64,000 nt of DNA from Streptomyces vietnamensis (GTDB taxonomy: Bacteria > Actinomycetota > Actinomycetes > Streptomycetales > Streptomycetaceae): assembly GCF_000830005.1 (NCBI RefSeq), contig NZ_CP010407.1, positions 7,514,001-7,578,000 of the forward strand. Reading direction: 5' to 3'. The translations under genes were made by a program, and so were the position numbers. Shown here piece after piece: positions 19,252 through 45,683 of this stretch. Positions within the stretch are counted from its first letter, which is position 1. Every line of letters starts with the position of its first letter. Below the pieces are notes generated by a model that saw only the letters and a program-made list of their open reading frames with translations, was not told the DNA's origin and did no database searches.

Positions 19252-19344
19252 GGTGGTTCCAGACGGTGGTAGCGGGCGGAGGACGGGGCGCGCGCGGCGC
19301 TCTTCTGGAGGTCATGGGGGGACTCCTCTGCTGGTCGGTCAGGG

Positions 19345-19375
19345 CGGGGCGGGCCATGGCGTACGGCCCGCCCCG
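19345..19375 (-). terminator. Hairpin terminator after the VirB6-like gene
   Basis: An 11-bp perfect stem (CGGGGCGGGCC / GGCCCGCCCCG) with a 9-nt loop, 12 nt past the stop at 19,387. No T-tract. It may set the ratio between channel genes upstream and ATPase genes downstream. Confidence 0.6.
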
Positions 19376-19386
19376 GGTGTGATGGG

Positions 19387-20784: not shown

Positions 20785-20811
20785 GGTGCTACCTCCTTTC
20801 TCGGACTGGGG

Positions 20812-21800: not shown

Positions 21801-21891
21801 GAAGAACTCCAGTTCGATTGCGCGCACGCCAAAGCCCCGCTGGGGCGAAGCGGCGGTGCGAGGAAAAGGGGAGAAGAGGGGAAAACACCGG

Positions 21892-24459: not shown

Positions 24460-25395
24460 TCAGGCTGCCTCGAACGCCCGCCGGATCAACGGCGCCGCCT
24501 TCTCCAGGTCCGCCGCCGAAGCGAGACGCACCTCCAGGTCCCCCGTCCCGAGGTGCCCGACACCGCGCATGTCCCGGGTGAAGCCCTCCTCCAGCACGAC
24601 CGAGTCCGGGTCGAGTCTGAGATAGACCAGGATCGCCTCGTGCTTCGGACGGAAGATCACCGATGCCACGTTCACCAGGCGCCGGTAGACGATGTAGTGC
24701 CGCAGCGCCGCCACCTCCACCTCGCCCCACGCCGTGAGCGCCTCGTCCAGCTCCGCGTACAGGTCCCGCAGGGACTCCGGTACGAGGCTGGCACCCGCCG
24801 GCGAAGGCGTCGCCGGGGCCGCCGGCGCGCTGTCGGCCACCGCGTCCCGCTCCCGGCTCCGCCGAGACGAAGCGGCGCTGGGTGAGCCGGGCGAGGAGTC
24901 GACGAGCAGCAGGCTCAGCAGGCCGCCCTCGAAGACCCGGTAGCGCACCAGGTCGATCCGCTCGGGCAGCCACTGCACGGCCACCCGGTCGTGGTGGGAG
25001 AAGCCAGCCGCGATGCAGACCATCCGCGGACGGCGCCAGTCGATCGACTCGGCTGCCTCCGCGCCCAGCACCTTCCGGACGAGCGCCTCGAACTCGTGCT
25101 GCGCCGAACGCAGCCAGGACAGGTACGAGACGGCCTGCGACAGCACCCCGCTGTCGGAGCCCTTCTTGAACTCGATCACCACCGGGCTGCCGTTCTCATC
25201 CAGCCCCAGGGTGTCGATCCGCCCCCGGTGCCACGGACCAGTCGCATACTCCGACGCCACGAACCGGATGCCGAGCATCTGCTCCAGCCCGGCCTCGACC
25301 CGCCGCTGCAGCTCCACCTCCAGCGCCACCGTCGAACCGGACAGCTCGACATCCCGCCCGTCCGCGTCCCGCCGGAACAACATCAGCTCGGCCAC
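24460..25395 (-). CDS. NucS-like nuclease fused to DUF5655
   Basis: A 311-residue protein. The N-terminal half has a PD-(D/E)xK core: GRIDTLGLDENGSPVVIEFKKG (Asp, then Glu-x-Lys), followed by SQAVSYLSWL, as in NucS/DUF91 nucleases. A Ser/Ala/Pro linker (about 190-215) leads to a DUF5655 domain (SLRDLYAELDEALTAWGEVEVAALRHYIVYRRLVNVASVIF). The GTG at 25395 is chosen because GGGAGGGG lies about 6 nt upstream. Related proteins occur near restriction systems; the substrate is unknown. It could cut unmodified or mismatched DNA. Confidence 0.75.
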   Translation of the reverse strand: MAELMLFRRDADGRDVELSGSTVALEVELQRRVEAGLEQMLGIRFVASEYATGPWHRGRIDTLGLDENGSPVVIEFKKGSDSGVLSQAVSYLSWLRSAQHEFEALVRKVLGAEAAESIDWRRPRMVCIAAGFSHHDRVAVQWLPERIDLVRYRVFEGGLLSLLLVDSSPGSPSAASSRRSRERDAVADSAPAAPATPSPAGASLVPESLRDLYAELDEALTAWGEVEVAALRHYIVYRRLVNVASVIFRPKHEAILVYLRLDPDSVVLEEGFTRDMRGVGHLGTGDLEVRLASAADLEKAAPLIRRAFEAA

Positions 25396-25585
25396 CAGCG
25401 CCCCCTCCCGTGATCTATGCAAAGACCAATCAGCGGGAGGCTCTGGGTATTCCGCCGCTGGGTATCGGTAGAGCGGCGTAGGCGGGGTACTGGCTGAAGG
25501 CCCGGTGGTTAGCGGTGCCGGGAGTCTGCCGAGTGGCCCATGAGATGATCAAGCGGGGCCTGCTTGGTGATGTAGGGGGTTGACC

Positions 25586-26701: not shown

Positions 26702-29026
26702 TCAGACCGGCAGGTAGGGGCTGGGCTTGCCGTGCCAGCTGATGTTCAGTGCGTCCCGGGCCCGCGTAGTCGCCACGAACAGCAGGGAACGGGCCTTGCG
26801 CTGCTCGCGTTCGTAGCGGGGCGGGTCCTCGGTGCGGTAGCGGTCGATGACGTGGGTGCGGGGGACGATGCCGTCACTGGCGCCCACGATGGCGAGGCGC
26901 TGGTACTCAAGGCCCTTGAAGCGGTGCATGGTGCCGACGTGGACCTCGCCGTCACCCTTGGGACCTTCCTTGGTGAGTTCGGCGCAGGTGATGCCAGCCT
27001 TGGTGACGAGGTAGTACATGGTCTGGCTGACCATGTCACGGTCGGCGACGCAGACGGCGATGTGGCCGCTCGGGTCTCTGGGCGAGCCGTTCTCGTCGGT
27101 GGAGAGCTCCTTGCGCCACGTGGTCAGGGTGGCGGCGAGGCCGGCGAGCTCGTCGTCCCAGGTGTCGTACGGGGTGAAGGCCGGGGCAGGGCCGTGGAGG
27201 ACGGAACGGTATCCGGCGAGGTTGTCGGTGCCGTCGTCCAGGTCGTCGTAGCTCACCTTCTGCCCGGGCTTCACGGGGTCGACCACACGGAGGGCCTCGG
27301 TGAGGATCTCCTTCGTGGTGCGGTAGCTGAGGGTCAGGCGGGAGGAGCGGCCGCGGATGTTGATGCCAAGGGCGCCGAGGGCCACCTGGTGGTCGTAGAT
27401 GCGCTGGTGGGTGTCGCCGGCGATGAACATGTCGTTGGGCTGGTCGGGGTCGGCCATGGCACGGAGCATCTTCCAGTGTGCGGGGCTGAGGTCCTGGGCC
27501 TCGTCGACGACGATGTGCCGGTAGCGGTGGTTGAGGTAGCGCATGCCGGAACTGTTGTCGCGGTGGATGAGGTCCTTGCCGCCGACCTCCTCCTTGTACT
27601 CGCGCCGCGCCCTGATCTTCGCGGCCCGCTCCATCTCGAAGCGGGCAGCGCGTTCCGATGCCTGGCCCCAGGTTTCCACGCCGAGCTTGTCGAGGCGGGC
27701 GGTGAACTGCTCAATGAGCTTCCAGATGTGGTTGCGCTCGGGCCGGGTCAGCGAGCGGCCCCGCCCGGCACGGCGGGCCTGGAAGTAGGCGGAGCGGGTG
27801 GGGACGGACTGGCCGAGGATGACCTGCTCCCACTCCTCCAGGAGGAATTCGGGCTCCCAGCGGCGGTCGTCGAGTTCGGCGAGGAGCTGGCGCATCTCGT
27901 TCAGCGCCACGTGGTCGTAGACACGCTGTCGGCCTCGGCCGGGTGCGGTGTTCTCGCCCAGGACGCGCGCGGCGAGCTGGTCGATGTGAGCGATCTCGAC
28001 CCGGGCGAGGAGTTCGGGCTCGATGAGCGAAGCCAGACGCAGGCGCAGGTCCGTGGTCAGGTTCTTGGTGAACGTGGTCAGCAAGATCGCCTTGTTGCTG
28101 CCGGGAGGCAGCTGCTCGGCCAGGTGCTTGACCCGGTGCAGGGCGACGATCGTCTTTCCGGTGCCGGGCCCGCCGGAGACGCGAGCAGGGCCCTTGTAGT
28201 GGCGGTGGACGATGCGCTCCTGCGTGGGGTGGAGGAACACCTTCCAGGCCCGGAAGTCTCCCTCGTCGATGGCCGCCTGCACGGCATCGTCGACGGCGGT
28301 GACCTTGGTACGGCTCAGGGCCGCGGCGAAGTCTCCGAGATCGGGCTCGTGGCCGAGCTCGACGGGCTGGGTGATTTCCTTGCGGACCTCGTCGATGGAC
28401 ATACCGGCGGCGAGGCCGTAAAGGACGTCCTTCGACAGCAGCGGGGCGCCCTCGACGAGCTGGTCCAGCTCGGCGCTGTCGGTGACAGCGAGGGCCAGCT
28501 CGATCAGCTGGTCCGCGACACCCAGCTCACGCAGCTGATCGGCGCCGTACGCGGCGAGCAAGGGAGAAGCCTCGGTCTCCGCCGTGGGCAGAGGCTGCGG
28601 CGTCGGCTCGGGCTCGGCCGGCACCGTGGTCCGGTCCGGTTCGGACGGGGTCAGGGTGATGCCGACGCGGCGCAGGGCGCTGTCGCCGACGACCGCGAGG
28701 TCGACGAACTCGATCTCGCCGGTGACGCGGTTGACCGCGACCTGGAGCTCTTCGTAAACATCCTTGCGGTGGCGGACGGCGATGACCAGCCAGCTCTCGG
28801 TGCCGTCCGTGTCGACCCCGGTCGGGGTGAGCAGGGCGCGGTAGGAGTCGTTGACCCGCGCGGACCAGATGCGCGAGTCGCCCTTGAGCTTCTTCAGCTT
28901 CAGGCCCGGCTGGTTCGGGTTGTTCCGGAAGACGTGGCAGAAGTCGTAGAACTGGGCCTTGACCGAGCGGTCGAGCTTGTACAGCTCCTGTTCGGCCTTG
29001 CGGTACAGGCTGAGCCGGGCGGTCAT
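26702..29026 (-). CDS. UvrD-family SF1 helicase with N-terminal RelE/ParE-like domain
   Basis: A 774-residue protein. Residues 1-95 look like a RelE/ParE fold (SLYRKAEQELYKLDRSVKAQFYDF, LKLKKLKGDSRIWSARVNDSYRALL, WLVIAVRHRKDVY). After a linker comes an SF1A helicase: Walker A SGGPGTGKTIVALHR near 280-293, VVDEAQDLSPAHW near 505-517, LSYRTTKEI, VGTMHRFKGLEYQRLAIVG near 700 and LLFVATTRARDAL at the end. The start overlaps the upstream stop as ATGA. It is the last gene of the four-gene run. Fusion of an RNase-like or ribosome-binding fold to a DNA helicase suggests a coupled effector; which surface is active is unknown. It ends at a strong terminator. Confidence 0.85.
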   Translation of the reverse strand: MTARLSLYRKAEQELYKLDRSVKAQFYDFCHVFRNNPNQPGLKLKKLKGDSRIWSARVNDSYRALLTPTGVDTDGTESWLVIAVRHRKDVYEELQVAVNRVTGEIEFVDLAVVGDSALRRVGITLTPSEPDRTTVPAEPEPTPQPLPTAETEASPLLAAYGADQLRELGVADQLIELALAVTDSAELDQLVEGAPLLSKDVLYGLAAGMSIDEVRKEITQPVELGHEPDLGDFAAALSRTKVTAVDDAVQAAIDEGDFRAWKVFLHPTQERIVHRHYKGPARVSGGPGTGKTIVALHRVKHLAEQLPPGSNKAILLTTFTKNLTTDLRLRLASLIEPELLARVEIAHIDQLAARVLGENTAPGRGRQRVYDHVALNEMRQLLAELDDRRWEPEFLLEEWEQVILGQSVPTRSAYFQARRAGRGRSLTRPERNHIWKLIEQFTARLDKLGVETWGQASERAARFEMERAAKIRARREYKEEVGGKDLIHRDNSSGMRYLNHRYRHIVVDEAQDLSPAHWKMLRAMADPDQPNDMFIAGDTHQRIYDHQVALGALGINIRGRSSRLTLSYRTTKEILTEALRVVDPVKPGQKVSYDDLDDGTDNLAGYRSVLHGPAPAFTPYDTWDDELAGLAATLTTWRKELSTDENGSPRDPSGHIAVCVADRDMVSQTMYYLVTKAGITCAELTKEGPKGDGEVHVGTMHRFKGLEYQRLAIVGASDGIVPRTHVIDRYRTEDPPRYEREQRKARSLLFVATTRARDALNISWHGKPSPYLPV

Positions 29027-32000
29027 CGGATGGTGCCTTCCGTGTCGGGGAGCTGGTCGAGCAGGGTGTCGAGGTGGTCGATCCATGCAGCGGCGGTCCG
29101 GACCGTCCAGCCGTCCTCGGCGTAGGCGGCGTCGCGCCGCTGGGACTCGACGTCCTCGTCGCCTTGGTGGATGGCGACGACTGCGATCTTGAGGTTGGGA
29201 GTCTGCCAGGCGAAGTCCGCCTGCCAGCGGCTGTTGCCGAGTTCGAATCCGAAGACCGGAGCCTGCTTGCCGTGCTCAGCGAGTGTCTCGGCGAGGCGAA
29301 GGAGGTCTGGTGCCTCGTCGGGGTCTTCGCGCAGGATCTCCAGGATGTCCTCGTCCCAGACCGCGTCCCGGATGATCTGACGAAGGGCGGCTTCGGCCGG
29401 CGAGTCGACGCTCGGCTCGGAGACCACAGGCCGTACAGCAGGCGCGGGCGTGGGTACGGGTGCGAGGGCGGCGGAGAGTGAGTCGAGTTCGCCCAGACCA
29501 CCACAGACGGCGAGGACCTCGACCTCGAAGTCTGCGGCGCGACTGGCCGCGAGCTGTACACCGTCCCCACCGGCGAGGGACAGGAACTGGGTGATGTTCG
29601 TCCAGTACAGCCAGGACCGCCACCGCAGTTTGTGCTCGTCCGTGTCGAGGACGGCGTCGCTGTCGTCGAGGACCGTCAGGGCGGTCCACCGCAGGTTGTC
29701 GGGGTCTGCGACGTCCAGCGCGAACACGATCGGAAGGCCGTGCTCGTCCTGGGTGCGGAACACGTGGACCGGACCGATGCCGCCAGTGTCGGATACGACC
29801 GGCTTGTCATCCCGTCGGCCGGCTCCGAAGGCGCCGAGCTGCTCGCGCAGCGCGGCGACGAGCTCACTGCGCTTGCCAGTGGCGGCCACGGGGGCCGTGG
29901 CGGGAACGGCGGTGAGCCCAGTGACCAGGGCGCGGGCCCGCCGGGTCCAGCGGGTCGCATCAGGGTCCCGCAGATAGGCGATGAGCGTGTCGATCGGGTT
30001 GGCGAAGATCGCTTCGCCGAAGTGGGCACGGTTGCCGCCGTACTGCTCGTACGCGGCCTTGGCCTGCTCCTGGGCGGTGCCCCGGTACGGCGGCCAGACG
30101 GGCTTGGTGCGCCCCGGACGCTGTTCGAACAGGTCGATGTCGGCCCAGGTGATCTGGAAGACGATCTTTCCGTCGGCACGGAGCAGGGTGCGCTGGGACG
30201 CGTTCTTGGCGATGAGGTTGTGCTCCCGGCTTGCGTGGAAGCGGAAACCCTCCAGATAGACGTGCACGCTCTGCACCGGACCGCCGACGCGGGTGAAGGT
30301 GAAGTCCGTCCGGGTGCCTTCGAGCTGCCGCTGGGCGGTCAGCCTCCAGTGCATCACGTCCGAGCCGTCGGTGAACCGCAGATGCCCGCTGGCGTGGCCG
30401 TCCTCGTCCAGGGCCGCGTCGTCGGTGACCTTCACCCAGTCCCGCAGGGCGGTCAGAAAGCGTGCCTCCAGGTCGGATTCGACCTGGGCGTCCAGCCCGA
30501 CCAGCCCGGTGTGCTCCACATCGCTGATGTCCCAGCCGTCCTCGCCGTCTCCCTTGAACAGCAGCGACTCCAGCATGCTGAGCGCCGCCTGCCGGGACAC
30601 GAGGTCCTGGAACTGCTCGGGGGTGTAGCGGTGCAGGCAGCGGTGGCAGGCGCGCCGCTGCTCTTCCGCGCACGGACATGCCTTGAGTTGTTCGTACGCG
30701 CGAGCAAGGGTGTTCCGGAAGGCATGGCGATCGGTGAGCCGGTCCAGGTAGCCGGTACCGCCCGGGAGGGAGTCGAAGAGCACCAGGAACCAGCGGCGCT
30801 CGCCGCTGGCGACGTCCGGCATGGAGGCCACCGTGGTGTCCAGGTGCTGCGGGTCACCGCCGAAGTGCAGGTCGACACCGAGCCGCAGGGCGGCCCGGAA
30901 GGAGTGCACCCGTGCGTCCACGTCGGCTGTCGCGGCCGGGATGAGGATCCGCAGGGCCTCGGTCTGCAGCTGGTGGGCGAGCAGCACCTGCTCCTGCGTG
31001 ACGCCGTCCTTCTTGCCGCGGCGCAGCGGGCACCACGGGCGGTGGTGCTTGAGCTGCGGGGCACGGGCCGCTGCCGATTCCAGGGCATCGGCGTCGTGAT
31101 CGAAGACGGGACGGCCGTCCGCGCTCGCGGCCCCGCAGGCGGTGCACACGTGGAACGGGTTCAGCCGGACCAGATGGCCGGCGAAGTCGTCACGGGCGGG
31201 AGCGTCGTAGCGGACCGGGCCCACGTTGATCCGGCGGATCATCGCCGTCCGGCAGTAGTCCACGCCGAACGTCTCCCGGTCGTGCCGCCAGGACAGGCCC
31301 TGCTCGATCCTCTCGACGGGGATGTCCACCGCGTCCACGACGGTGTACGAGCGGCGGTCGCGGTCGTCCTTGTCGTCGCGGATCCGGGCGTCCTCACGTT
31401 TGTCCCGCGACGTCACGGTGGCCGGCTCGACGACCTGGAACAGGCAGGAGCCGTCGTCGGCGATCTGGCTCGTCCTGCACCGGGGGCACGGCGAGCGATC
31501 GTCGGTGGCGTTCTCGGTGCGCACGTAGCCGCACCCCGGGCACACTCGCCATGTCCGCCACTCCTGGCGCCCGCCCGTCGCGAGCTCCAAGCCCGTGATC
31601 TCGTGCCGGTAGCCGTTGACGTAGAAGGTGTTGCCCGGCGCCAGTTCCTGGATCGCGAGGCGGCGGGGACGCTCGTAGGAGAGGGTCTCGGACGTGAACA
31701 CCACCTTGTCCGTCTTCGGGTCGATGCCGTCCTCGCCGTACAGGGTCGCCGACAGCGTCGTCGTCGAGTCGATGAGGGCGTAGTTCGGAAGCAGACCCAG
31801 GTCACACAGGGCGCTCTGCGCCGTGATGTCGCCCAGGTGGAGCAGCTGCCTGCCCACCCCGCGCCGCTCGGCGTCGAGTTCTGCTTTCTGGCGCGCCTGG
31901 TCGGGGTCGCTGTCGTGCAGCTCGCCGTGGGCCTCGTCGATCTCGCGCAGCCGCGCCCGCAGGGCGTCCTCGGCACGTCGCCACTCGCGTTCCGCCTTCT

Positions 32001-35000
32001 CCACGGTGCTGCGCAGGCCGTGCGTCGCGAAGGCCTCCAGATCGGCCTTGGCCTGCTCGCTGACGCCCGTCGGGAACAGCCGCAGGAACCCCTTGACCAG
32101 CTCCTCGCCCTGATCGAGGGCCAGCTCCACCAAGTCGGTCAGATAGCCGGACGGGCCGAACAGGCGAGGCGCCTTGTGCGGCAGTGCGCGCAGCACGACG
32201 CCGTCCGTGCGGACGAGACGGCCGGCCGCTGCAAGGTCGAGCAGATGTGCCAGGTACTGGCGCCGCAGGATCTCGACGGCCGACAGGTAACACCCGGGCG
32301 GCACGATCGTGCCCGCGATCAGGTCCTTCGGCCGCTCGAGGAAGTACAGGTCACGGCGCCGACGGTCGGGGATGGTCAGCAGGAAGGCATTTCCGGTACG
32401 GCGGCCGGCCCGGCCGACCTGCTGCGCGTAGGAGGCGGGGCGGCGCGGCAGCGCGGCCAGCACGACGGCGGACAGGTCGCCGATGTCGATACCCATCTCC
32501 AGCGTGGGCGTGCAGGACAGCACGTTGGGGTCCTTGAACCCGCTGCCGTGCTTGAACGCCTCCTCGACCTTCTCGCGCTGGTGACGCGTCAGCATGCCCG
32601 TGTGCTCGGCGGTGACCACCTGATAGGTGCCCGCGCCGAGGTAGAGCCGACGGTAGTAGTCATCCCTGTAGTCGCGGTCGCGGTGGTGTATCCCCAGACC
32701 CTCGGGCCGGTCGCCAGCCACCAGGCGACCTCGGCGGCACCGGTAGGACGGGCAGGGCTGGCCGTGCCACTGGTCCAGCAAGGACGGGTGGACCGTCTGC
32801 TCCCAGAAGCACACCGGGCACCTCACGTACGAGACCCGTACCTGCTCGTCGTCCAGCAGCCGGGCCTCGATGTTGCCGGGCTTGAGCCCGTACACCCGCA
32901 CCGAGGTGTCGTTCGGGGTGCGCACCGACAGCAGCCCCATCGAGGCGAGTTCGGGCAGCAGTCGGCTCCACAGCTCGGGTGCCAGTTCGCGCGGCAGCTC
33001 CAGGCACCGCCCGGCCCACCGTTCGTACCAGGACAGCCGACCGGTCGCGAAGTCGAACTCGCTGCCGTTCTTGGGCTGCCCGAGGAGAAACACGGGGGCG
33101 GCGATGCCCTTCGGGAAGGCCCGCATGCCCGGAGCCCGCTTGCCCCAGATGTAGTACCGGCTGGTGCCCGCCTCGTCGATGTACTTGTCCAGCCATCGGT
33201 GTGCGACCGCACCGCGGGTGCGCAGTCGCTCCAGGAAGATGCGTACGAACGCCAGATAGCGGGCGTCGTCCTGTGCCATCAGCGGCAGCCCGTCCTGTAC
33301 GCACTCCTCGTGCAACTGCTTGACCAGCGCGATCACGGCTGCCGGGTCGTCGATGCGGACCTGTGCGGCGGCTGTCCGTGTCAGCTCGAGCGTACGGCCG
33401 TTACGGGACCGGAAGCCGAACTCCATCAGCGCCTCGAACGCCAGCCGCTGACCGATCAGCCGCCACGTCTTCAAGTCTCCACCGCGGCCCTGGCCGGACA
33501 GGAGTCGGTCCACGCCCTTGAAGCCGTGCAGGTCCGGTGGCACCACTGCAGAGAGGGTGTCCCTGTCCGTCGTGGCGGTGACGACGTTCGCGATCAGATC
33601 GTTCAGCGCGGTCGGCTTATCGTGCCGCAGATGATCGGTGAGGAGGGCGCGGAGCGAGAAGGTGTACGAGCGGTTGGCGACGAACCCGGCCCGGTGCGCG
33701 GCATCCTGCACCGAGTCGTTGAACATCAGCGTCTTGTCCTCGCGGAGCTCCCTGTCGAGCTCTCCGCCGGTGAACAGCTGCGTGACGGACGCCGCGGCCA
33801 TCGCGGCGGCGCCCGTACCGAGGTAGCGGATCGCGTTGCGCTCACCGCACGCCGGACACCAGTCCTCCTTGGCCGCGGTGTTCGCGGTCTCCCCGAAGTT
33901 CACCAGTACGAATGCCGAGTCACGGGCCGTCAGCCGGGGCTCCTTGGTCTCCCGGTCGTAGTCGTTCAGCGGATCGGGCAGCCGCAGCCGCTTACGGGTG
34001 CCGTCCAGCACCATCAGCAGCCCGCCGGCACCCTGCGATGCGGCCGAGCCTCCCTTGCCACTGGTCGCCGTGAGCAACGCGGCCCCGGAGCCCTCCCGGG
34101 CCTCCCGGTCCGTCGCAGCGATCAGGTTCCGCACCCGGGCCTTGTCCTGGCCGAGCGACGCCCGCCGGATCTTGTACGTGTCGAACTGGACGTCGTGGTC
34201 ATCGCTCTCCGGTGAGAACACCGCCCAGCCCGACCGCCCGCAGTCACGGCAGTAGATCGCCGGCAGGAACAGGTTCGCGCTCTGCCCCGACGTCGCCGTC
34301 GTCACCGGAGCCATACGGCCGCTGTCGGCCGCGCTCGCGTCGGCCGCGCCCGCCGTGTCCCAGCGGAACTCCGCCTTCGGCCACGGCAGTACGCCGCGCA
34401 GCAGTCGCGATACCGAACGCGCCCACTGGTGCACCTCGACGTGCACGAAGGGCCGGGGCTCAGCGGGGGAAGACTCAGGGGCACGCGCGTACGACAGCAG
34501 CGCGACGAACCGCGCCAGCGCCTCAGCCGCCTTCTCCGGCTGCCGCGCCACGGCCTGGGACCAGCCGGCCGCGCCCGCACGCCACATCACGTCCAGCACC
34601 TCGGCGCTGGTCTTCACCCCGCCGCCGAGCGCCTGCATCACCGCACGAGTGAACAGATGCCGCTTGAGGTTCCCACCGAGCACGAAGGGATCGAGGTCAC
34701 GGACGTCCGTCACCTTCTCGATCAGATCCAGCAGCGCCCCGTCGCCGGTCGCCGGATCGGGCAGCGCCAGCAGCTCGTCGGGCGTCGGCATCGGCTGCAT
34801 GGTCACCTCGCCGAGCGGGATGAACTCCTCGACCGTGAGCCGGTTCTCCCCGACGATGGAGTCCTTCGTGAACTCCGTACCGAAGACGTGGGTCGCCACC
34901 TCCAGCAGTTGCGCCGTGCCATCCTCGTCCGTACCGGAAGCGAGCGTCGCCGACGTTGCCACCGGACAGATCTTCCCAAGCGGGCGGCCTTCCTCTGCCG

Positions 35001-35754: not shown

Positions 35755-38700
35755 GGCTTCGGCACCTCCTGCTTCTCCGGATCCCACTCGCCACGGGCGA
35801 CGGCGTCATTAAGCTGCTTCTGAAAGACAGCGTGGGCAGCTCGCATTTCCGCCTCTCGATCTGCCTTGTAGAAGGGTGCAATGTAGCCGTCGGGTGCAGC
35901 AGCAATCTCGGGATTTGCAAGGTGAGTTAGCAGCTGCTCATAGTGTTCCTTCGTTTGGCCATGTCCAAAGATCTTGTAGTCTTCGGCGATCTTCCGTCCG
36001 TGCGCGTCGAACCATATTTTCTCTTCTCGCTCAAAGAGAACCGGAAATCTGGTCTTGTAAATCGTGCAGAGTGACTCTGCATCCATGCCGAGCCAGACCG
36101 CAACGAGAGCATCAAGTTCGACCATTGCGCACCAGCGGCCGTGATCCGTCCGCAACGGACTTGAACGTGACCACTCACCTATGGGGCGTCCCAACGGTTC
36201 CCGAGGAGGATTTGACAGGATCCATCGGTCCGTTGCCCAATTTTGACTGGCTGCAATTCGCCAAATATCTGAGTACGCGGATGTCAGGCAGTTGAGCCGG
36301 GCCGTCCTCAGGCTGAGCTTCTCGGCGAGAGGGTGATTTGCCTGAGGTACGGGCATCTTGCGCACATCTCGGTCGTGTAGATTCTTCTTCCCTGTCAGGC
36401 GAAGAATGTATTCGACGGGCAGGGTGCTCCAGAATCCGACGGTCAGTAGGTTGAGATGGGCGTCCCCGCGTGACATTGAGTAAAGACCGTCCACGTGCGT
36501 TGGGCCAGGCGGGATCAGGGCAACGTTGAGACACCTCTCCATATTATTTGGCGTCAGCTTACGCCAACAGACACGGAAGTATTCGGAATAGGGCGAATCG
36601 TTCCACTTTCGCAGGGATTCGGAGAAATCTGCCTCAGAAGCGGCTCGTCGGTAATTTACTGCGGGAATCGCGTCTGAGGAGAGTGTCTCCAGGTTGACTG
36701 GCTTTCCGTGGCTCCCCAGATTGGGACTTTCTTTGGAGAAAGGATTTGAGGCGGTGATATGAGACCCGCTGAGGATGGCCTCGTGGAAGGTGGAAGGCTC
36801 AAAATGACCCTTCTTAATGATGCCCTTCTTTTGAGCGCCCGTCTCATGGAATCCAGAACTGATGTATTCCGTTTTGCCGAGCCGGTTTGTGTAGCTCCTG
36901 AGTGCCGACATCGCCGCGCGCTCGGCTGTCGTGGTCGGGGTGAAGAGGACGGTGTGTCCGATTGGCTCACCAATCTGATCCGAAAGGTCCTGCCACTCGG
37001 CCAGTAGCTGATCATTCACTCGAATGAGGCGGCTTCGATGGGGTCGCAAGTCAGGCTTGCCGGAAATCCTTATGCCGGGGATCGGGCCGTTCCCGTCATG
37101 CTTGAGTGAATCCATGACGACGGAGGAGTGGTACAGATTTCCCAGCTGAATGAATGAAATCTCGCCACTTGATCCGTAAATATGGACACCGAAATGTGTG
37201 TTGTGGTCTACGGGTTCGGGGAAGGCCCAGTTTCCGCCGTTGACAAAATGGCAATGGACCTTCAGACGATGCAGTGCTGCCGCACGTACCCTCTCGAATC
37301 CCGTGCTTGTGAGATGGGTTTCGGAGTGCACCATGCCGGAGATGCCGCTGTCGTTTGCGTGATTCCATGCCGCGCACATGAAGGCCAGGTATAGATCGGT
37401 CTGTTCGGCCGCGAGTTCAGGGTACGTCGTTTCGGACCCGAGGAAGGTGGAGTTGGCTGACGCGAAGCTATTGCGTCTGGCGAGACTTGTCTTCGCGTTG
37501 GACCCGGCGACAAGACGGGAACGGCGTTCAGCGTACTCAGGGTGAGAGATGCCACCCACAACTCCGAACCACGGGTCGAGTTCCGCGAATTCGGAAATTT
37601 CGTCCCATGTTGGCTGAACCCAGGGCGGGTTGCCGACCTGGAGGTCGAATCCGCCTGCCTGAGCGAAGACAAGCGCAAAATCTAGTTCCCAGTGCAGGAA
37701 GCCCTGTTCCTCCGCGATATCACGCGCTCGCCTCAGCCACGGGAAGCGGTCCTCCGGGTTGCCAGCGTCCATGCCCATGAAGCTTGGCAGCGTCTCCTCG
37801 AAGCTCTTGAGCGCTTCGAGGTCCTTGAAGCTGTCGATGAGGGTTCCCTCGGGCACGTCGGCCGTGCCGAGCATGGCCTCCAGGAACTCCAGCCAGTCGT
37901 CCAAGTCCTTGAGCGGGACGATCGGCCGCCGCTCCGCGGCCTTCGGCTTCGGCGCTGAGCTCTGGGACCCTCCCCGCGGCTTGATTTCCTTGACCTCCAC
38001 GACCGAGTCATCGGCACTCAGCTCAAGGTCCGCAAAACTGGTCTGCTCTGGACCGAACGCAAACAGGGCCGTCGCCTCGACGAACCGCGGAACGGGTGCG
38101 GGCGTCGGCACGGCGACTGGTTCCGGATCGGCGGGAGGCGCGGGCGGCTCCGCAACCAGCGGCGCGCCGTCCAGCAGGCGGCTGAGGCTGTCCGCTCCCG
38201 TCACCTCCAGCCGTGCCGAGTACTCCCCGGCCGTCCCGTCGAGCAGCCCGGCCTTGTCGACGGGCCAGAACCACAACGCGCACCAGGCGTCCATGATCTT
38301 CTTCAGGCGCCAGTACGGAGTGTCCGCGGCGTTGAAGAGGTCTTCGAGGACCTGCTCCTTCGTAACCGCCTGGTCAGGGCGGTGGAGGAAGGCGTACTCG
38401 GGGTCGGTGGAGTCAGCGCCCCAGACGTCTATCCGGCGGGCGATCGCCTGCTCGGAGAGCTCCATGCGCTTGACGACAAGCGACCAGAGGAACTCGACGC
38501 GACGGGCGGCGTCCCGGAGCCGGGTGAACTGAGACACCGGCTCCTTCTTCGCCCTGCCGGTCTTGTTGCGCTTGGGGCGCTGGAGAATGCCCTTCTTCCA
38601 AGCCGCGAGCTGTTCGACGCCCTCCTTCGCCAGCTCCTTGGCCTCCTTCGAGCCCGCGACCGCGGCCCACCCGGGGCTCGGCAGCAGGAACTGATGGACT

Positions 38701-41027
38701 GCGTCCTGGGGCAGTGGCTGGGGCTCGCCGTCCTTGAGGAAGGGCAGCGGGGCCGGGGCCAGGGCGCCCTTGGCCTTGAGCCATTCCTTGCCGGTGACGT
38801 CGTCCGCCGCGTAGACAGCACGGCGAGCGCCGATGAGGCTGTTTCCTCGGCGCAGGTGGAGGCCGAACCACGGGGCTCGCATGCCGGGGTGCATGGTGTT
38901 GAGCCAGAGCGACACCTCGGCGAGCTCGACACCAGTGGCGTTCAGGTCGACGCCGTACGCATTGTGCAGAGCGATGTACGCCTTGGCCTTCTGCTTCTCG
39001 GTGAGGGCGTCTGCGGTCGGGATGGTGACGCCCAGCTCGTCCTGTCGGCGGCGCAGGTACTCCTCGGCGACCTGGTTGATCGCCTCGTTGAGGAAGGCAC
39101 CGGAGCCGAGGGCCGGCTCGCAGATCTTGTACTTGAGCAGCTCCGACGCGCGGGTCTTGATGACGTTGTCGTCGGCGTCGCGCTCCTGGTCGAGGCGGTG
39201 CTTGAGCGTGAGCTCGACCGTGACCTGGGTCAGCGACTCGGGCGTGTAGTACGAGGCCGAGGTCTCGCGGTCGCGGCCGGCGAGGCGGTAGACGAACGAG
39301 CCCTGCTCGTACTTCTTGACGCCGCGCAGACCCTTGCGCGCGTCGTCCTCGTCGTAGTGGACGAGGGTCTTGTCGGGATACTGGTCCTGCTTGTGAGAGG
39401 GGATGAGCCAGGAGCCCTTCTCCGGGTCGCCGCCCTTGGCGACCTCGCACAGTTCCTCCTCGGCGATGATGCCGGTGTACGACATCAGGCCCTCGTAGAC
39501 GGCGCCGAGCTGGTTGATGCCGAGGTTGCGGTAGGAGATGAAACCGCCCCGCTCGCCGCGCTTGCCCTTTTTCATGGTGAGCAGGCGCAGTACCTCGTGC
39601 AGAGCGGCGTTGCGCAGGCGCAGGTCGAGCCAGCGCGGGGCGTCGTCCTCGTCGCTGCGGGGGTCGACGACACCCCTGCCGATGAGGCGTACGGAGCCGG
39701 GCTCGAAGAGTTCGCTGCGGAGGGGTTCGAAGCGCAGGCCGCGGTCCTCGCTGCGGCGGGCGGCCTTGGCCGCGCGGGTCTCCTCGTCGTCGCCGGGCTG
39801 GTCGTCGTCGTCCTCGGTGCCGTACGGACGGTGGCCGAAGTTGACCTTGTTGAAGAGGACGTCCAGGGATTCGTGCAGGTGGAAGCCGTTGCGGGCCTCC
39901 TCCTCGACGAGCTCCTCGTCGCGTTCGACGAGTTCGCGCAGGCGGGCCATGGAGTAGCCGGCCTCGTAGCTTCCGTCGTCTGCGGGGAGGATGCCGAGCT
40001 CGGGACGGGCCTCGGCGTAGAGGAGGAACAGGATCCGGTAGAGGTAGCGGAGGGATTCGCGGGTGAGTTCCCGGGCGAAGGGAATCTTGGGGCTTTCGAT
40101 GTCGGCCGGGGAGACGCCGTTCTTCGGCTCGGCCATCCGCGCGAGGACTTCGTTGGCGATGATTTCGACCGAGCGCTGGAGCCCGTGGCGCAGTTCGCCG
40201 GAGACGCCGGCGGCGTTGGCGCCGGAGGACTTCAGCAGGGCGTCGATGGCCCGGCTCTGGTCGTTCTCGCCGGGCCGGAGCACGTCCAGGCTGAACAGCG
40301 CGGCGATGGTGGCGAGTTCGCCCTGCTGGGTGCGGTCGTTGCGTTCCAGGGCCGCGTCGAGGTTGACGGCGAGGTAGCGGCCTTCGTTCCAGGACTGGCG
40401 GTCGGCGAGGACGAGCACGCCGCCGCACAGCAACAGGACGAAGCGGGGGCGGGGTCCGCCGGCCTCGCCGAGTTCGCTCTGGAACAGCCAGGACGCCAGG
40501 GTCTGGCCGGTCTCGTACGTCTCGCTTGCACTGACACGCAGCGGGTGCAGCAGTCGGCCCGGTCCGGTCGCGTCGAGGGCGGCGTCGTTGTCGGCGGCCC
40601 AGCCGCAATCCAGGGCGATGATCCCGTGGCCGTGGTAGGCCACAGGCAGGGAGTGGTCGCGTCCGGCACGGTGGACGGTGATCTCGGTGGGAGTGGCCTC
40701 GAAGCCGAGGGCGTGCAGGATCGTCTGGTGCCACTCGGCGAGGTGCTTGCGCCACTCGGGGTTGTTGTGGGTGTTGAGTCGGATCTCGTCCCCGGCGTCG
40801 CGCTCGGCGGCGTCTGCGAAGTAGCCGCGTACGTCTTCGGAGAGGTAGGCGCCGCGCAGCGAGCGGAGCAGCTCCCGAGGTGTCTTCCGCGGGTCGTTCT
40901 CATCGCCTTCGCGCAGGGCCCAGGTGGCGAACAGGCCCTTCTTCAGGTCGGTTCCGAGCTGCTCGGCGAAGTAGTGCGCGGCGAAGTACTCGCCGCGGTT
41001 GCTGAAGGAGTCGAAGTCGGTGCTCAT
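35751..41027 (-). CDS. Large N6-adenine DNA methyltransferase (DrmMI/PglX-like)
   Basis: A 1,758-residue protein. A long N-terminal region (1-560) without clear motifs is followed by SYYTPESLTQVTVEL, motif I CEPALGSGAFLNEA near 640, YGVDLNATGVELAEVSLWL, and motif IV GNPPW near 1,133, the order of gamma-class Eco57I/PglX enzymes. There is no obvious nuclease core, so it probably marks self DNA or primes recognition. Residues about 1,115-1,720 (35,870-37,690) are the presumed specificity region and are visibly AT-richer than the rest. ATGA overlap with the SNF2 gene upstream and GTGA with the helicase downstream indicate coupled translation. It is longer than typical DrmMI. Confidence 0.85.
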   Translation of the reverse strand: MSTDFDSFSNRGEYFAAHYFAEQLGTDLKKGLFATWALREGDENDPRKTPRELLRSLRGAYLSEDVRGYFADAAERDAGDEIRLNTHNNPEWRKHLAEWHQTILHALGFEATPTEITVHRAGRDHSLPVAYHGHGIIALDCGWAADNDAALDATGPGRLLHPLRVSASETYETGQTLASWLFQSELGEAGGPRPRFVLLLCGGVLVLADRQSWNEGRYLAVNLDAALERNDRTQQGELATIAALFSLDVLRPGENDQSRAIDALLKSSGANAAGVSGELRHGLQRSVEIIANEVLARMAEPKNGVSPADIESPKIPFARELTRESLRYLYRILFLLYAEARPELGILPADDGSYEAGYSMARLRELVERDEELVEEEARNGFHLHESLDVLFNKVNFGHRPYGTEDDDDQPGDDEETRAAKAARRSEDRGLRFEPLRSELFEPGSVRLIGRGVVDPRSDEDDAPRWLDLRLRNAALHEVLRLLTMKKGKRGERGGFISYRNLGINQLGAVYEGLMSYTGIIAEEELCEVAKGGDPEKGSWLIPSHKQDQYPDKTLVHYDEDDARKGLRGVKKYEQGSFVYRLAGRDRETSASYYTPESLTQVTVELTLKHRLDQERDADDNVIKTRASELLKYKICEPALGSGAFLNEAINQVAEEYLRRRQDELGVTIPTADALTEKQKAKAYIALHNAYGVDLNATGVELAEVSLWLNTMHPGMRAPWFGLHLRRGNSLIGARRAVYAADDVTGKEWLKAKGALAPAPLPFLKDGEPQPLPQDAVHQFLLPSPGWAAVAGSKEAKELAKEGVEQLAAWKKGILQRPKRNKTGRAKKEPVSQFTRLRDAARRVEFLWSLVVKRMELSEQAIARRIDVWGADSTDPEYAFLHRPDQAVTKEQVLEDLFNAADTPYWRLKKIMDAWCALWFWPVDKAGLLDGTAGEYSARLEVTGADSLSRLLDGAPLVAEPPAPPADPEPVAVPTPAPVPRFVEATALFAFGPEQTSFADLELSADDSVVEVKEIKPRGGSQSSAPKPKAAERRPIVPLKDLDDWLEFLEAMLGTADVPEGTLIDSFKDLEALKSFEETLPSFMGMDAGNPEDRFPWLRRARDIAEEQGFLHWELDFALVFAQAGGFDLQVGNPPWVQPTWDEISEFAELDPWFGVVGGISHPEYAERRSRLVAGSNAKTSLARRNSFASANSTFLGSETTYPELAAEQTDLYLAFMCAAWNHANDSGISGMVHSETHLTSTGFERVRAAALHRLKVHCHFVNGGNWAFPEPVDHNTHFGVHIYGSSGEISFIQLGNLYHSSVVMDSLKHDGNGPIPGIRISGKPDLRPHRSRLIRVNDQLLAEWQDLSDQIGEPIGHTVLFTPTTTAERAAMSALRSYTNRLGKTEYISSGFHETGAQKKGIIKKGHFEPSTFHEAILSGSHITASNPFSKESPNLGSHGKPVNLETLSSDAIPAVNYRRAASEADFSESLRKWNDSPYSEYFRVCWRKLTPNNMERCLNVALIPPGPTHVDGLYSMSRGDAHLNLLTVGFWSTLPVEYILRLTGKKNLHDRDVRKMPVPQANHPLAEKLSLRTARLNCLTSAYSDIWRIAASQNWATDRWILSNPPREPLGRPIGEWSRSSPLRTDHGRWCAMVELDALVAVWLGMDAESLCTIYKTRFPVLFEREEKIWFDAHGRKIAEDYKIFGHGQTKEHYEQLLTHLANPEIAAAPDGYIAPFYKADREAEMRAAHAVFQKQLNDAVARGEWDPEKQEVPKP

Positions 41028-44000
41028 CGGTCGGTGCCTCCTTCAGCGGCGTTGAGCGGTTCCAGGACGGCGAGCAGACGCAGCATCGGCTCGCCCGTGG
41101 TCTGCAGGGACTTGAGCAGGCTCAGGCGCCTGCTGGCGCTGAGGTTCACTCCGCGTTTGCCCGTCCCGTCGGAGGAGAACAGGGCTTCCTGCTGCCAGTG
41201 CACGACGCGCTTGCGGGACGGGGCGAGGATCTCCTCGATCTCTTCGCCGTACGCCTCCCTCAGGTCTCGGAGGTGCTGCTCCGCCCTGTTGATGGCGCCG
41301 GGGACGAGCTCCGTCAGGCTGTCGAGGTCGTGCGGCGCGGCGCGGCCGGGCATCGTCGGACCCAGGCCGTAGTCCTCCAGCACCTCCGGGGTCAGAGGTG
41401 TCACCTGAAGGTCGTTCGGGTCGCCGTGGACGGCCATCCACTCGACGATGGTGGGCCGGCCCAGCGCGTTGGAGCAGATGCCCTGGACCAGGAAGGTCGG
41501 TGAGTCCACGGATGCGGCGAGGACGGGGGCCTGGTGGCGGCCGACCTCGACGAGCACCTTGTCGGTCAGCCAGTCCAGGACTGGGTGGACGTCGGTGACG
41601 TAGGAGACGTTCGGCCACTGCGACTTGGACGACTCGCGGGCTGCCTTCAGACGCCGGTCTGCGAGGTCCTTGGAGAAGGTGATGCGCATCCGTCCCGGCT
41701 CGGCCTTCCGGGGCATGATCCGCTGCTCGTCGAGGTACGACTTCGGCAGCGCCTTCAGCCGGTACAGCAAGTCGCGCGGGGGTTCGAAGGCGATCGTGCC
41801 GTCGTCGTCGCGGCGCAGCGAGAGCTGGTCCTCGGGGTTGGGACGGCAGACCTGACGCAGTGCCTCGTCGAAGTAGTCAGCGGTGGACGAGAACAGGCGT
41901 GGCACATATGCCCGCCGGACCTCGGGATGCTCCGGAACGGCGCCCACCTGGCCGAGCAGTCCGGAGAGGAACGCGGCACCTCCCAGCTGGGACTGCTTGA
42001 TGGACTCCTCGACGGTCCGGCCGGCGATCAGGTCCTGGGTGAGGCGGTTCTCCTCCTCCTTGGCCCGGTACAGGCCGGTGACGGCCTCCACCGATCCCTC
42101 GATCTTGTGCGCTTCCTCTTCGCGCTTGAGCAGCTTCTCGCCCACGAGACGGTCGTCCAGCGTACGAGGCTCCCCGCTGGTCTCGTCCGTCCGCCAGGGG
42201 AGGTCGCTGGTGAGGATCAGAGCCCGGAACTCCGGCCGGTGCTCCTGGCCGTAGCGGTCGATACGGCCGTTGCGCTGCTCGATACGGATCAGGGACCACG
42301 GTAGGTCGAAGTGGATCAGCCGGTGGCACTGTTGGTGGAGGTTGACGCCTTCGGAGGCGACGTCGCCGGTGAACAGGATGCGTACGGGGTCGTCGCGCAG
42401 CCCGAACTTCTCGACGATGGCCTGCTGCTCCTCGTCGCTGGTGGCGTCCCCGTGCATGACCTGCACCGCGCCGCCGAAGGCTAGCCAGGGCTTGTTCTCG
42501 TCGGGGCCGGCACCGCGCGGGAAGCCGAGCGCGGTCGGGACTGCCTCCGCGAGCCACTTCAGTGTGGGGATGCGCTCGGAGAACACCACCACGCGGGTCT
42601 CCGAGCCGGGTCCGACACCCATGGTGCGCAGCTCGTCCAGGAGAGCCGACAGTTTCGCCGAGTCCTCGTCCTGGATCCGCTCGGCCACGTCCCGGAGGTC
42701 CAGCAAGGCCGCTCGCTCCGCCTGCCTGGCCGCCTCCCGGACCGTCGGGTCGACCGGGCGTGCCGTCCGCTGCCCGCCTCTCGCGGACTCGGCAGCCGGT
42801 TGCTTGTCCAGCGTTGCCAGCCGCGTCTTCACGGCCTCCAGCAGCGCCTTGTGTGAAGACAGGAAGGATTTCAGGAGCTGGTAGGGCACCAGTTGGTGCC
42901 GACTGACCGAAGACTGGTCGGGGTCGGCCGGAATCCAGCGCGTGGCGAGCTCCTGGAAGACGGCGAGCTCCTTCTCGCCGGCCGCTACGTGGATCGGCTG
43001 GGACGGTCCGCGGTCGGCCCAGGAGCCCTTCAGCGAGTCGCGGACCTCCGCCGTCGTCTTCGTACGCCGGATGTAGAGGTGCTCGAGGTCCTTCACCTCG
43101 TACTTCGACGGGTTGGCGATGGCCGCTTCGTCCAGCATCTTGATCAACTCGGCGAACGACTCGGCACGACCGTTGTGGGGCGTGGCCGACGCCAGCACCA
43201 GCGCATCGGTCTTCCGGGCCAGGAGGCGGGCGAGCTCGTTGTTCTTGGTCCCCCGGTTGACCAGATTGTGGGACTCGTCGATGACGACGGCGTCCCAGTT
43301 GGTGTGCTCGAGGTGGTGCGCGTAGACGTCGCTCTTGAGCGTGTCCACGGAGATGATCGCGCGCTTGAAGTACGCGAACGGGTTCCGGCCGGCCGGAATG
43401 TCCTGCTGGATGCGCTGGATGCCGGTGGAGTCCAGACGGACGAGCGGGATCGCGAACCGGGTCCACAGCTCCCGCTGGAACTGCTCCAGCACATGCTGGG
43501 GGGTCACGACCAGGATGCGCTCACCGCGCCCGCGCCGGATCAGCTCGGCGAGCAGCACCCCGATCTCGAGGGTCTTGCCCAGACCCACCACGTCGGCGAT
43601 GAGGATCCGCGGCTGCGGGTTCTTCTCCAGCGACAGCGCCAGCTCGGCGGGCCGCAGCTGGTGCACCTGCTGGTCCATGAGGAACCCGTCGGCCAGCGCG
43701 AGCCCATGCTCGGTCTGCGGCAGGAACGTCTTGCGCATCACCGCTTCAAGGAACAGGCGGCCTCGCCGGTGGTTGGGTGAGTCGTCCGGGACGAGCCGCG
43801 TCTCCCGCGGGTCCAGCACCTGGATCGCGTCGAGCCGGCTGTAGAAGACCGCGTCCGTGCCGCGCACGAAGGACGAGATGCCGGTGACCTCCACCATCCA
43901 CCCGTCTTCGCCGACGTCCTTGGAGTTCCGGACGAGCCACAGCTCGTCGCGGATCAGCACCTGCGACCCCGGGGCGTAGCCGGCGGGTCCGGTGGTTCGC

Positions 44001-44113
44001 CGCGAAGCCGCAGCATCCTCCGGCACCCAGGCGTCCCACGCCGCATCGCCCTGGCCGCCCACGGCTTCCGCCTCGACGCTCAACGTCCGCTCCGATCCAT
44101 CACCAGCGGCCAC
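41024..44113 (-). CDS. SNF2/RapA-type helicase, DrmD-like
   Basis: A 1,029-residue SF2 ATPase. The N-terminus has GSQVLIRDELWLVRNS, a small barrel-like module. Motif I ADVVGLGKTLEIGVLLAEL near 170-187, motif II VVIDESHNLVNRG near 277, motif III LASATPHNG near 305, and motifs V-VI ILFTGDVASEGVNLHQQ and IRIEQRNGRIDRYGQ near 580-620. This arrangement matches DrmD, the SNF2-like helicase of class 1 DISARM. The start is GTG 44113, 100 nt after the kinase stop; no strong ribosome site is visible. It heads the coupled SNF2-methyltransferase-helicase-UvrD run. Confidence 0.88.
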   Translation of the reverse strand: MAAGDGSERTLSVEAEAVGGQGDAAWDAWVPEDAAASRRTTGPAGYAPGSQVLIRDELWLVRNSKDVGEDGWMVEVTGISSFVRGTDAVFYSRLDAIQVLDPRETRLVPDDSPNHRRGRLFLEAVMRKTFLPQTEHGLALADGFLMDQQVHQLRPAELALSLEKNPQPRILIADVVGLGKTLEIGVLLAELIRRGRGERILVVTPQHVLEQFQRELWTRFAIPLVRLDSTGIQRIQQDIPAGRNPFAYFKRAIISVDTLKSDVYAHHLEHTNWDAVVIDESHNLVNRGTKNNELARLLARKTDALVLASATPHNGRAESFAELIKMLDEAAIANPSKYEVKDLEHLYIRRTKTTAEVRDSLKGSWADRGPSQPIHVAAGEKELAVFQELATRWIPADPDQSSVSRHQLVPYQLLKSFLSSHKALLEAVKTRLATLDKQPAAESARGGQRTARPVDPTVREAARQAERAALLDLRDVAERIQDEDSAKLSALLDELRTMGVGPGSETRVVVFSERIPTLKWLAEAVPTALGFPRGAGPDENKPWLAFGGAVQVMHGDATSDEEQQAIVEKFGLRDDPVRILFTGDVASEGVNLHQQCHRLIHFDLPWSLIRIEQRNGRIDRYGQEHRPEFRALILTSDLPWRTDETSGEPRTLDDRLVGEKLLKREEEAHKIEGSVEAVTGLYRAKEEENRLTQDLIAGRTVEESIKQSQLGGAAFLSGLLGQVGAVPEHPEVRRAYVPRLFSSTADYFDEALRQVCRPNPEDQLSLRRDDDGTIAFEPPRDLLYRLKALPKSYLDEQRIMPRKAEPGRMRITFSKDLADRRLKAARESSKSQWPNVSYVTDVHPVLDWLTDKVLVEVGRHQAPVLAASVDSPTFLVQGICSNALGRPTIVEWMAVHGDPNDLQVTPLTPEVLEDYGLGPTMPGRAAPHDLDSLTELVPGAINRAEQHLRDLREAYGEEIEEILAPSRKRVVHWQQEALFSSDGTGKRGVNLSASRRLSLLKSLQTTGEPMLRLLAVLEPLNAAEGGTDR

Positions 44114-44213
44114 CGAGGGCCGCCCACACTCCAGGCGCCTGCAAACAACGGACTACGCCGTCCGGGCACGCCATTCCGACAAAGACTCTCACCTGGCACT
44201 GTCAGCGCAGGAG

Positions 44214-45389
44214 TCACAGAACGGGATCGGCGGCATACAACGCGCGCAGTTCGTCCGCGATCCGCTTCGATGCAGGGGGGCGTCCCCTGGCCGCCCCCGG
44301 CTTCGGTGGGTCGTTCCGCGTCTTGGAGCCCGGGGCCGGCTCGGGCAGGAGAACCTCTGGCTCGTCCGGATCTGGCTCTGATTCGTCTGCTTCGGCCTGC
44401 GATACGCGCGCAGGGTCGTCGAGCGGGCTTGCCGGTTCGTCGTGCTCGATGCGGTCGGCCTGCTCGTGGATGAGCTTCTCGAAGGACACCGTCAGTGGCT
44501 CACCCGGCGCCGACGAAGCCCCGCCCCCGTTGGTGTGGGCGATCAGCGCGAGACGGGCGGCGGCCGGTGTCGTCCCGGAGTCGGAGAGAACCCTCGCGCA
44601 CGCATCGGAGACCACCTGCAGAGTCGGCCGCTCCTCCGGCGCGTGGGCGAGCATCGACTCCAACAGAGGCACCAGCGGCGCAGGCACACCAGAGAGGTCT
44701 GGAGCGATCTCGGCATTGGTGACCTGCGCCGCGATCGCTTCCCAGCGTGATCCGTCGTACGGATAGTGGCGAGCCGCCGCATACAGCAGGACCGTGCCCA
44801 GCGCGTACACATCCGCTGCAGGTGACACCTGCGGATGACCGCCGGCCTGCTCAGGCGGCATGCATCGGACCGTGCCGATGATCATGCCGCTGTGCGACAG
44901 CGTCTCCTGCGAGGCATCCATGAACGCGCCCAGCCCGAAGTCGATGATCATCGGTCCGTCATCACCCAGGATGACGTTCTGCGGCTTCAGGTCTCGATGG
45001 AGCAGCCCTGCGGAGTGGACTGCCGACAAGCCCTCGGCGAGCAATGCCCCGAGGCTGGCCACCAGAGGCAGGGGAAGCAAGCCATCGCTGTCCACGCAGG
45101 CCAGCAGCGTGCGCCCAGCCACGTACTCCATGGCCAGCCACGGCCGGTCTGCGTAAGGGTCCGCGTCCAGGAAGCGGGCCACCCGGTTCGTGCCGATCAC
45201 CGTGCGGGCGATCAGCGCCTCCTTCTCGAAGCGCGCACGCGTCAGCGGATCGAGCTTGTCGTTGCGGATCACCTTCACCGCGACCAGATCACCTGCCGGC
45301 GTGTAGGCGAGATAGACCTCACCCATCCCGCCCGAGCCGAGTTCCCGCGCCACCGTGTACCGGCCGATCCGCGTGGGCACCCCGCTCAT
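44214..45389 (-). CDS. Soluble Ser/Thr protein kinase (PknB-type)
   Basis: A 391-residue eukaryotic-type kinase. It has the glycine loop GSGGMGEV (18-25), catalytic Lys in AVKVI (39), HRDLKPQN (131-138), DFG (150-152), PPEQ in place of APE, and DVYALG. The kinase ends near residue 270; the tail is Asp/Glu/Pro-rich and then basic ([29 protein letters not shown]), with no membrane segment or sensor domain. ATG 45389 places the kinase fold at the very start; a GTG at 45446 gives 19 more residues. It lies 100 nt upstream of the DrmD-like gene in the same direction, so it may phosphorylate members of that system, much as PglW-type kinases accompany Pgl. Confidence 0.85.
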
Positions 45390-45683
45390 CCGTACCGACT
45401 CACCTTCTCCGACGCGCCTCACTCGATCGGCGCTCTGATCTGCCACTACTCTAATCGGCCATGAGATCAGCTTGAGGAGCTTTCGGCCTGATCAGGACAT
45501 CGGGCAGCTGGATGCTGACCGAAAGTGACCGCTGTGAGTGGTGCAGCAAAGCCCGGCCACCAGAGGTGCGCGGTCCGCCAGCAGCGGGACGCCATGGCCG
45601 ACCACTGCCCGGAGACCGTTTCCACCCCGCTCGCGTATCACCCCCAGTAGTCGGGACCGTCTGCAAGAACGGAGAAACGCACC

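Follow-up and report, generated by a model that had tools for sequence, protein, structure and literature searches.

The 64,000-nucleotide (nt) stretch of Streptomyces vietnamensis DNA analyzed here (assembly GCF_000830005.1, contig NZ_CP010407.1, positions 7,514,001-7,578,000, forward strand; hereafter the window, whose positions are used for all coordinates) carries a five-gene locus that almost certainly belongs to ARMADA Type II. This defense system was described in September 2025 by Bell et al. (2025; PMC12458937) with the gene order ArmA (BrxHII/RapA)-ArmB (PglX-like)-ArmC (YprA)-ArmD (RelE-GajB/UvrD). Five minus-strand genes fill positions 26702-45389, where a first-pass annotation of this DNA had placed them; in transcription order they are a serine/threonine kinase gene, armA, armB, armC and armD. 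The four-gene system is already known, while the kinase and the exchange of a cassette within armB are new relative to the ARMADA II literature that we found. The term "kinase" is absent from the main text of PMC12458937 (its supplementary gene-neighborhood tables may hold one), and no description of a kinase or of cassette exchange in ARMADA was found in the main texts of the best-ranked open-license PMC literature.

The four genes that follow the kinase are collinear orthologs of armA-armB-armC-armD of Escherichia coli ATCC 8739, whose ARMADA II locus was assayed by deletion (PMC12458937). ArmA is 35% identical to its E. coli counterpart (467 bits), ArmB aligns in two segments (376 and 244 bits) and ArmD scores 303 bits; ArmC scores 633 bits against E. 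coli ArmC versus 119 bits for its best segment, in a patchy alignment, against the adjacent Druantia III protein DruE3. The E. coli system is reported to require all four proteins and to protect without cell killing or shutdown, and mutations in strain NCTC 12900 of ArmA K136/D236, ArmB N971/G605, ArmC K110/D234 and ArmD K266/D454 abolished protection or, for two of them, weakened it (PMC12458937). All eight of these residues, which carry identical numbers in strain ATCC 8739, are retained by the proteins of the window. Among the 25-27 relatives that were aligned for each gene, none is substituted, and two gaps fall in the ArmA columns. The locus resembles the described system in its four proteins and their order, with RelE-UvrD in last place and a YprA helicase that apparently ends in a nuclease-like domain. 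It differs in having a kinase gene ahead of armA and in the exchange of the ArmB cassette, for which no description was found in PMC12458937.

On the minus strand, the gene for the 391-amino-acid kinase (44214-45389; Pfam Pkinase, 1.4e-35, scored on the longer open reading frame 44214-45446) is followed after a spacer of 100 nt (44114-44213; 30-132 nt in relatives) by armA (41024-44113), which encodes an SNF2/RapA-like helicase of 1029 amino acids (Walker A K180, Walker B D279). Next come armB (35751-41027), for a PglX-like adenine methyltransferase of 1758 amino acids (S-adenosylmethionine motif G641, NPPW N1133), armC (29023-35754), for a YprA/DruE-like giant helicase of 2243 amino acids (Walker A K108, Walker B D226, DUF1998/MZB domain), and armD (26702-29026), for a 774-amino-acid protein with a RelE-like domain fused to a UvrD/GajB-like helicase (Walker A K291, Walker B D508). 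Stop and start codons overlap by 4 nt at all three junctions (ATGA at 41024-41027 for armA/armB, GTGA at 35751-35754 for armB/armC and ATGA at 29023-29026 for armC/armD), just as first annotated. These overlaps and the conservation of gene order in other genomes uphold the earlier view of the helicase and methyltransferase genes as a single unit: the order, with -4 or -1 overlaps, is found again in relatives beyond what chance would give, and on two Streptomyces plasmids the overlap before armD is replaced by gaps of 102 and 120 nt. For the kinase, ArmC and ArmD, the open reading frame list also holds starts further upstream; we used the starts at which relatives also have a start codon, and as the relatives' start codons were picked as the nearest to the window's, this agreement supports the chosen starts but does not prove them.

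ARMADA II ArmC proteins are described as carrying a C-terminal Vsr-type nuclease, often extra inactive domains, and BrxA-like, zinc beta-barrel and MarR-like insertions (PMC12458937). ArmC of the window has seven CxxC motifs, a PD-(D/E)xK nuclease-like domain at about residues 1751-1933 (29956-30504) and a second, weaker nuclease-like domain at about residues 2144-2236 (29047-29325), a tail that supports the restriction function proposed below. Searches of solved structures with ArmB and ArmC-tail profiles returned nothing useful. The identification of the last gene as a RelE-UvrD fusion is supported, for the RelE/YoeB-like N-terminal domain (about residues 1-91; 28754-29026), by a 14-sequence profile, built from 12 ArmD proteins (including a divergent one from Thermus) and two RelE-UvrD proteins from other contexts, which matched 2khe (best E value, 1.2e-5), YoeB (1.4e-4) and RelE3 (0.0028). 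Searched alone against Pfam, the N terminus of the window's ArmD gave ParE_like (0.0041) and ParE_toxin (0.013), both under the cut-off. The RelE-UvrD fusion is not exclusive to ARMADA: at loci L101 and L102, which have no ArmA, ArmB or ArmC matches, an ArmD-like RelE-UvrD protein is encoded next to a restriction endonuclease of the BPTD_3080 type and a site-specific methyltransferase. The fusion thus occurs in different defense types.

The first-pass annotation had described ArmC as a fused DrmA-DrmB and the whole set as a distinct type between DISARM and Druantia. As to the former, the domain content stands, with a DEAD helicase and DUF1998/MZB in one protein, but the family is that of DruE/YprA, in which a single-gene helicase is the usual state (PMC12458937), and YprA/ArmC helicase is the better name. 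As to the latter, the set is canonical for neither system and does stand between the two, but it is not a new type, because ARMADA Type II had already been described and tested (PMC12458937). The locus shares with DISARM class 1 an SNF2 helicase and a PglX-like methyltransferase, and both genes match the corresponding DrmD and DrmMI models. That it represents canonical or divergent DISARM class 1 is nonetheless improbable in the extreme, since the NCBIfam DrmD model scores ArmA at 273 bits against a cut-off of 610, the best PADLOC model for ArmB is REase_MTase_IIG (848 bits versus 173 for DrmMI) and that for ArmC is DruE (311 bits versus 55 for DrmA). The UvrD helicase of ArmD resembles GajB. 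Helicase and DUF1998/MZB are joined in one protein in place of separate DrmA and DrmB, no separate DrmB was seen among the scanned genes, and no PLD domain (DrmC) was found in the five genes or the eight neighbors scanned, the rest of the genome not having been searched for drmC.

Other known systems resemble the locus in part. Druantia Type III (DruH-DruE) has in DruE a YprA helicase related to ArmC; the window differs in having further genes and an ArmC far closer to that of E. coli, and DruH was not among the best 25 PADLOC matches listed for the five genes and six neighbors. Pgl/BREX type 2 (PglW-PglX-PglY-PglZ) likewise couples a Ser/Thr kinase to a PglX-like methyltransferase in Streptomyces; PglW, whose kinase activity is essential, has been proposed to control PglX by phosphorylation (PMC4365076). 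PglW, however, is a protein of 1400-1600 amino acids with NERD, pseudokinase and C-terminal parts (PMC12839542), all lacking from the kinase of the window, and the motors of the window are SNF2, YprA and UvrD helicases. Neither PglZ nor PglY was among the matches listed for the scanned genes of the locus, to which this search was limited, the rest of the genome being left out. MADS (methylation-associated defense system) resembles the locus in that a kinase, MAD6, stands beside a methyltransferase-based defense. The MAD6 model scored the kinase of the window at 117 bits against a cut-off of 460 bits.

The earlier annotation had associated the kinase with the operon, and its distribution agrees. 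Of 50 informative actinobacterial loci, 48 have the kinase gene immediately before armA, versus none of four outside Actinomycetota (E. coli, Pseudanabaena, Haematobacter and a divergent Thermus set). A search for ArmB relatives contributed 27 loci, and a kinase was found in all 25 that have sequence upstream of armA; the class-wide sample contributed 21 of 23 informative loci (the exceptions are L071 and L073), and both informative Streptomyces plasmid loci have the gene, annotated as a protein kinase. The class-wide sample comprised 394 genomes, 42 of which (including the window's own) encode an ArmD-like protein at E 1e-60. Outside the window there were 46 ArmD-like places, from which 40 stretches were taken together with nine extensions; the six omitted scored below 251 bits. 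As two ARMADA loci each were taken from genomes G161 and G324, the counts refer to loci and not to genomes. The upstream-kinase count omits loci whose armA is absent or truncated at the 5' end (L012, L027, L039/L085, L041/L077, L043, L046/L081) and those without armA (L060-L070, L072, L074, L101, L102, L105, L107), while L042, L044, L045, L047, L048 and L051 were counted through their upstream extensions L078, L079, L080, L082, L083 and L084. L099, with just 430 nt upstream, stands outside the count of four although it is labeled kinase-free in the ArmA tree below; L103 is included in it despite a weak ArmA match (190 bits). Among the loci examined, the five-gene, kinase-bearing form is seen only in Actinomycetes. 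Seven named island genes of the window were sought upstream of the kinase in relatives, and only L008 and L033 have any of them; because the sequence there varies between loci, the unit begins at the kinase.

The kinase has the motifs VAVK (residue 36), HRDLKPQN (residue 131) and DFG (residue 150), and its catalytic motifs are retained in nearly all relatives. In the kinases of L016 and L034 the catalytic loop reads HRDLTPKN in place of HRDLKPQN and the rest of the gene is kept; their activity is possibly altered. Alignment of relatives shows a long, variable, acidic and proline-rich linker followed by a conserved C-terminal motif with the core [LI]RxxY, ADELRALYA in the window (residues 378-386; 44232-44258, minus strand), which is a candidate docking helix. 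In 40 of 46 ARMADA kinases the pattern A..[LIM]R..Y[AD] falls within the final 40 residues, and the other six differ from it at one position. By comparison, it occurred in none of the 28 complete C termini among 30 other kinase loci of the same genome, a check that covers fewer than half of the genome's 64 kinase-domain matches. A tree of 52 ArmA rows separates the 46 that bear a kinase from all others by a single branch, with a support of 99 in the Shimodaira-Hasegawa-like approximate likelihood ratio test (SH-aLRT), corresponding to one change of kinase label. (The tree omits nine short or weak rows, L012, L042, L044, L051, L077, L078, L079, L084 and L103, and L035 entered as the first of its two ArmA pieces.) Kinase and ArmA identities are correlated across 46 loci (rank correlation coefficient [rho], 0.93), and the kinase co-varies with ArmA, ArmC and ArmD at rho 0.92-0.94. 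To look for a kinase-linked docking insertion in ArmA-ArmD, 23 rows with a kinase (17 for ArmD) were set against six kinase-free rows (five for ArmD, one of them short); this gave no more than two short segments in ArmB and one in ArmC, and no clear domain. Together, the position next to armA, the ArmA tree, the correlations and the C-terminal motif suggest that the kinase is most likely a fifth component of actinobacterial ARMADA II.

We also compared the 18.7-kb unit between loci. In 300-nt bins, DNA identity between the window and L008 was 90-100% outside one block of armB (83% in one edge bin), versus 49-62% in six bins at about 37.6-35.8 kb; L015 and L030 have the same low-identity block (50-62%) between flanks at 81-99%. 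The block (about residues 1140-1715; 35883-37610, minus strand), which we call the cassette, starts right after the catalytic NPPW motif (residue 1133), ends near residue 1715 and lies in the C-terminal third of ArmB. Its GC content at third codon positions (GC3) is 63% versus 90% in the preceding part of armB, and in the other loci, too, the total GC content of the cassette is below that of the preceding part, by 0.6 to about 12 points, with the lowest values (55-58%) in L015, L025, L029 and L030. The best other full-length cassette match in 392 Streptomyces-group genomes is 43% identical, and the nearest cassette seen is that of Lentzea locus L025 (about 42-64% per 100-residue bin). Across 23 loci (253 pairs), the kinase, ArmA, ArmC, ArmD and the N-terminal part of ArmB are mutually correlated in identity (rho, 0.87-0.96), whereas the cassette is not correlated with any other component (rho, 0.02-0.10). 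In 14 of 276 pairs, the N-terminal part of ArmB is at least 85% identical and the C-terminal part at most 55%. The reverse is seen for L018 with L016 and L034, in which the cassettes are 91% alike versus 78% before the cassette. The pair and correlation analyses omit L012, L019, L027 and L033, whose genes are broken, cut or mis-started, and the correlations also omit L013.

The most probable explanation of these patterns is that strains exchange the cassette whereas the remaining operon changes little. Rapid divergence in place under diversifying selection, with no exchange, could also produce a block of low identity; recognition regions can evolve fast, and among potential donors none nearer than Lentzea L025 came to light. 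We nevertheless regard this explanation as very improbable, given the sharp edges of the block, the 27-point step in GC3, the differences in length and the pairs whose cassettes are more alike than the sequence before them. The window's own genome has no other match to the cassette at E 1e-20, and so there is no sign of a shufflon. In BREX, the target-recognition domain of BrxX is the region past the methyltransferase domain (PMC11842806), and because the cassette holds the same position, it is most simply viewed as a specificity module.

Taken together, these data make it fairly probable that ARMADA II in its five-gene form is a system of methylation-tied DNA restriction with exchangeable specificity, gated by a PglW-like kinase. 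In this model, ArmB would methylate or recognize a DNA sequence dictated by its exchangeable C-terminal cassette, and the ArmA motor (SNF2/RapA), the ArmC helicase (YprA, with its nuclease-like tail) and ArmD (RelE-UvrD) would translocate along, unwind and cut unmarked DNA; RelE might cleave RNA as well. The kinase would dock to the complex through its conserved C-terminal helix and, upon infection, phosphorylate an Arm subunit (ArmB or ArmA), as proposed for PglW on PglX. Strains would trade the cassette while the remaining operon stays nearly constant, and because only the cassette is traded, DNA specificity could shift without a rebuilding of the machine. We hold only tentatively, and short of an even judgment, the more specific proposal that actinobacterial ARMADA II is a restriction machine regulated by phosphorylation, that a dedicated kinase, gained once, docks to the complex by a C-terminal helix and switches it on at infection, convergently with the action of PglW on PglX, and that the traded cassette provides population-specific phage specificity. 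Several points limit the strength of this interpretation. The co-variation of the kinase with the Arm proteins would also result from shared inheritance, the pairs entering the rank correlations are not independent, and the ArmA tree was made by a quick method and has long basal branches. Moreover, 13 of the 14 discordant ArmB pairs involve the window or L015, and the discordance therefore reflects few events.

The kinase might instead control expression, phosphorylating a transcription factor that switches the operon on rather than the Arm proteins. The kinase gene does come first, with its own gap before armA, and there is precedent in the kinase CapK, which together with the repressor CapS controls the expression of immune operons (PMC13373217). 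We consider this unlikely, as no repressor gene was found to accompany the locus (the upstream genes were searched only for the seven named island genes) and the correlation of the kinase's identities with those of ArmA, ArmC and ArmD suits a physical partner at least equally. Still less likely is that the kinase is an independent effector, comparable to the stand-alone PD-T4-6 defense kinases, riding with ARMADA as a second layer. Its best PADLOC matches are indeed PD-T4-6 (184 bits) and mad6 (166 bits), but these span the general kinase domain, and the stable adjacency, the single gain and the co-variation with ArmA favor a subunit.

The surroundings of the operon hold further defense genes. 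A pPIWI-RE three-gene set lies directly upstream of the kinase at 45684-52914 (pPIWI, 271 bits; DinG-like, 361 bits; restriction endonuclease, 61 bits); in L008 the pPIWI protein was found only as a 222-residue piece. Beyond it are a KAP-family ATPase (54907-57897) and a protein of 1810 amino acids (58518-63950) with a very strong match to TmtA (1751 bits), which we take to be the Tiamat defense protein. Just past armD, a gene at 24460-25422 has matches to DUF5655 and a NucS C-terminal nuclease-like domain. Relatives of Streptomyces plasmid genes occupy 6772-22263, including a type IV coupling protein (49%), an ATPase (30%), a lytic transglycosylase/C40 protein (38%) and a relaxase piece (44%). 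The Streptomyces plasmid compared carries conjugation genes, and a fuller relaxase relative lies about 7 kb to the left of the window. No tyrosine-integrase match was found within the 64-kb window. The defense island may be located on or beside a conjugative element.

Elsewhere, other defense genes seem to nest at the junction of armB and armC. L041, L044, L047 and L048, from a sister lineage within the genus, have a whole NsnABC set, presumably Menshen, between armB and armC; in L043, of the sister lineage, NsnABC lies upstream of armC and the contig ends before armB. Between armB and armC, L042 has a HEC-01A ATPase and L051 an AbiEi-like gene, and L045 and L051 have one further frame each, with no match. 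In L012 (6871-11970), from a metagenome-derived contig, 5.1 kb separate armB and armC with no clear long gene. L103, on a Thermus plasmid, is a divergent set resembling ARMADA; BrxL lies upstream of it, and its helicase and methyltransferase genes are separated by an NYN-domain gene. At L039/L085, armC, armD and a partial armB were found, but no armA or kinase, and the locus is apparently a decayed copy.

ARMADA has been listed among the systems that restrict by unknown mechanisms (PMC12904381). A lineage with a built-in kinase would offer a handle on the activation of ARMADA, and natural cassette swaps in otherwise near-identical operons would provide a ready-made comparison of methylomes and phage ranges.

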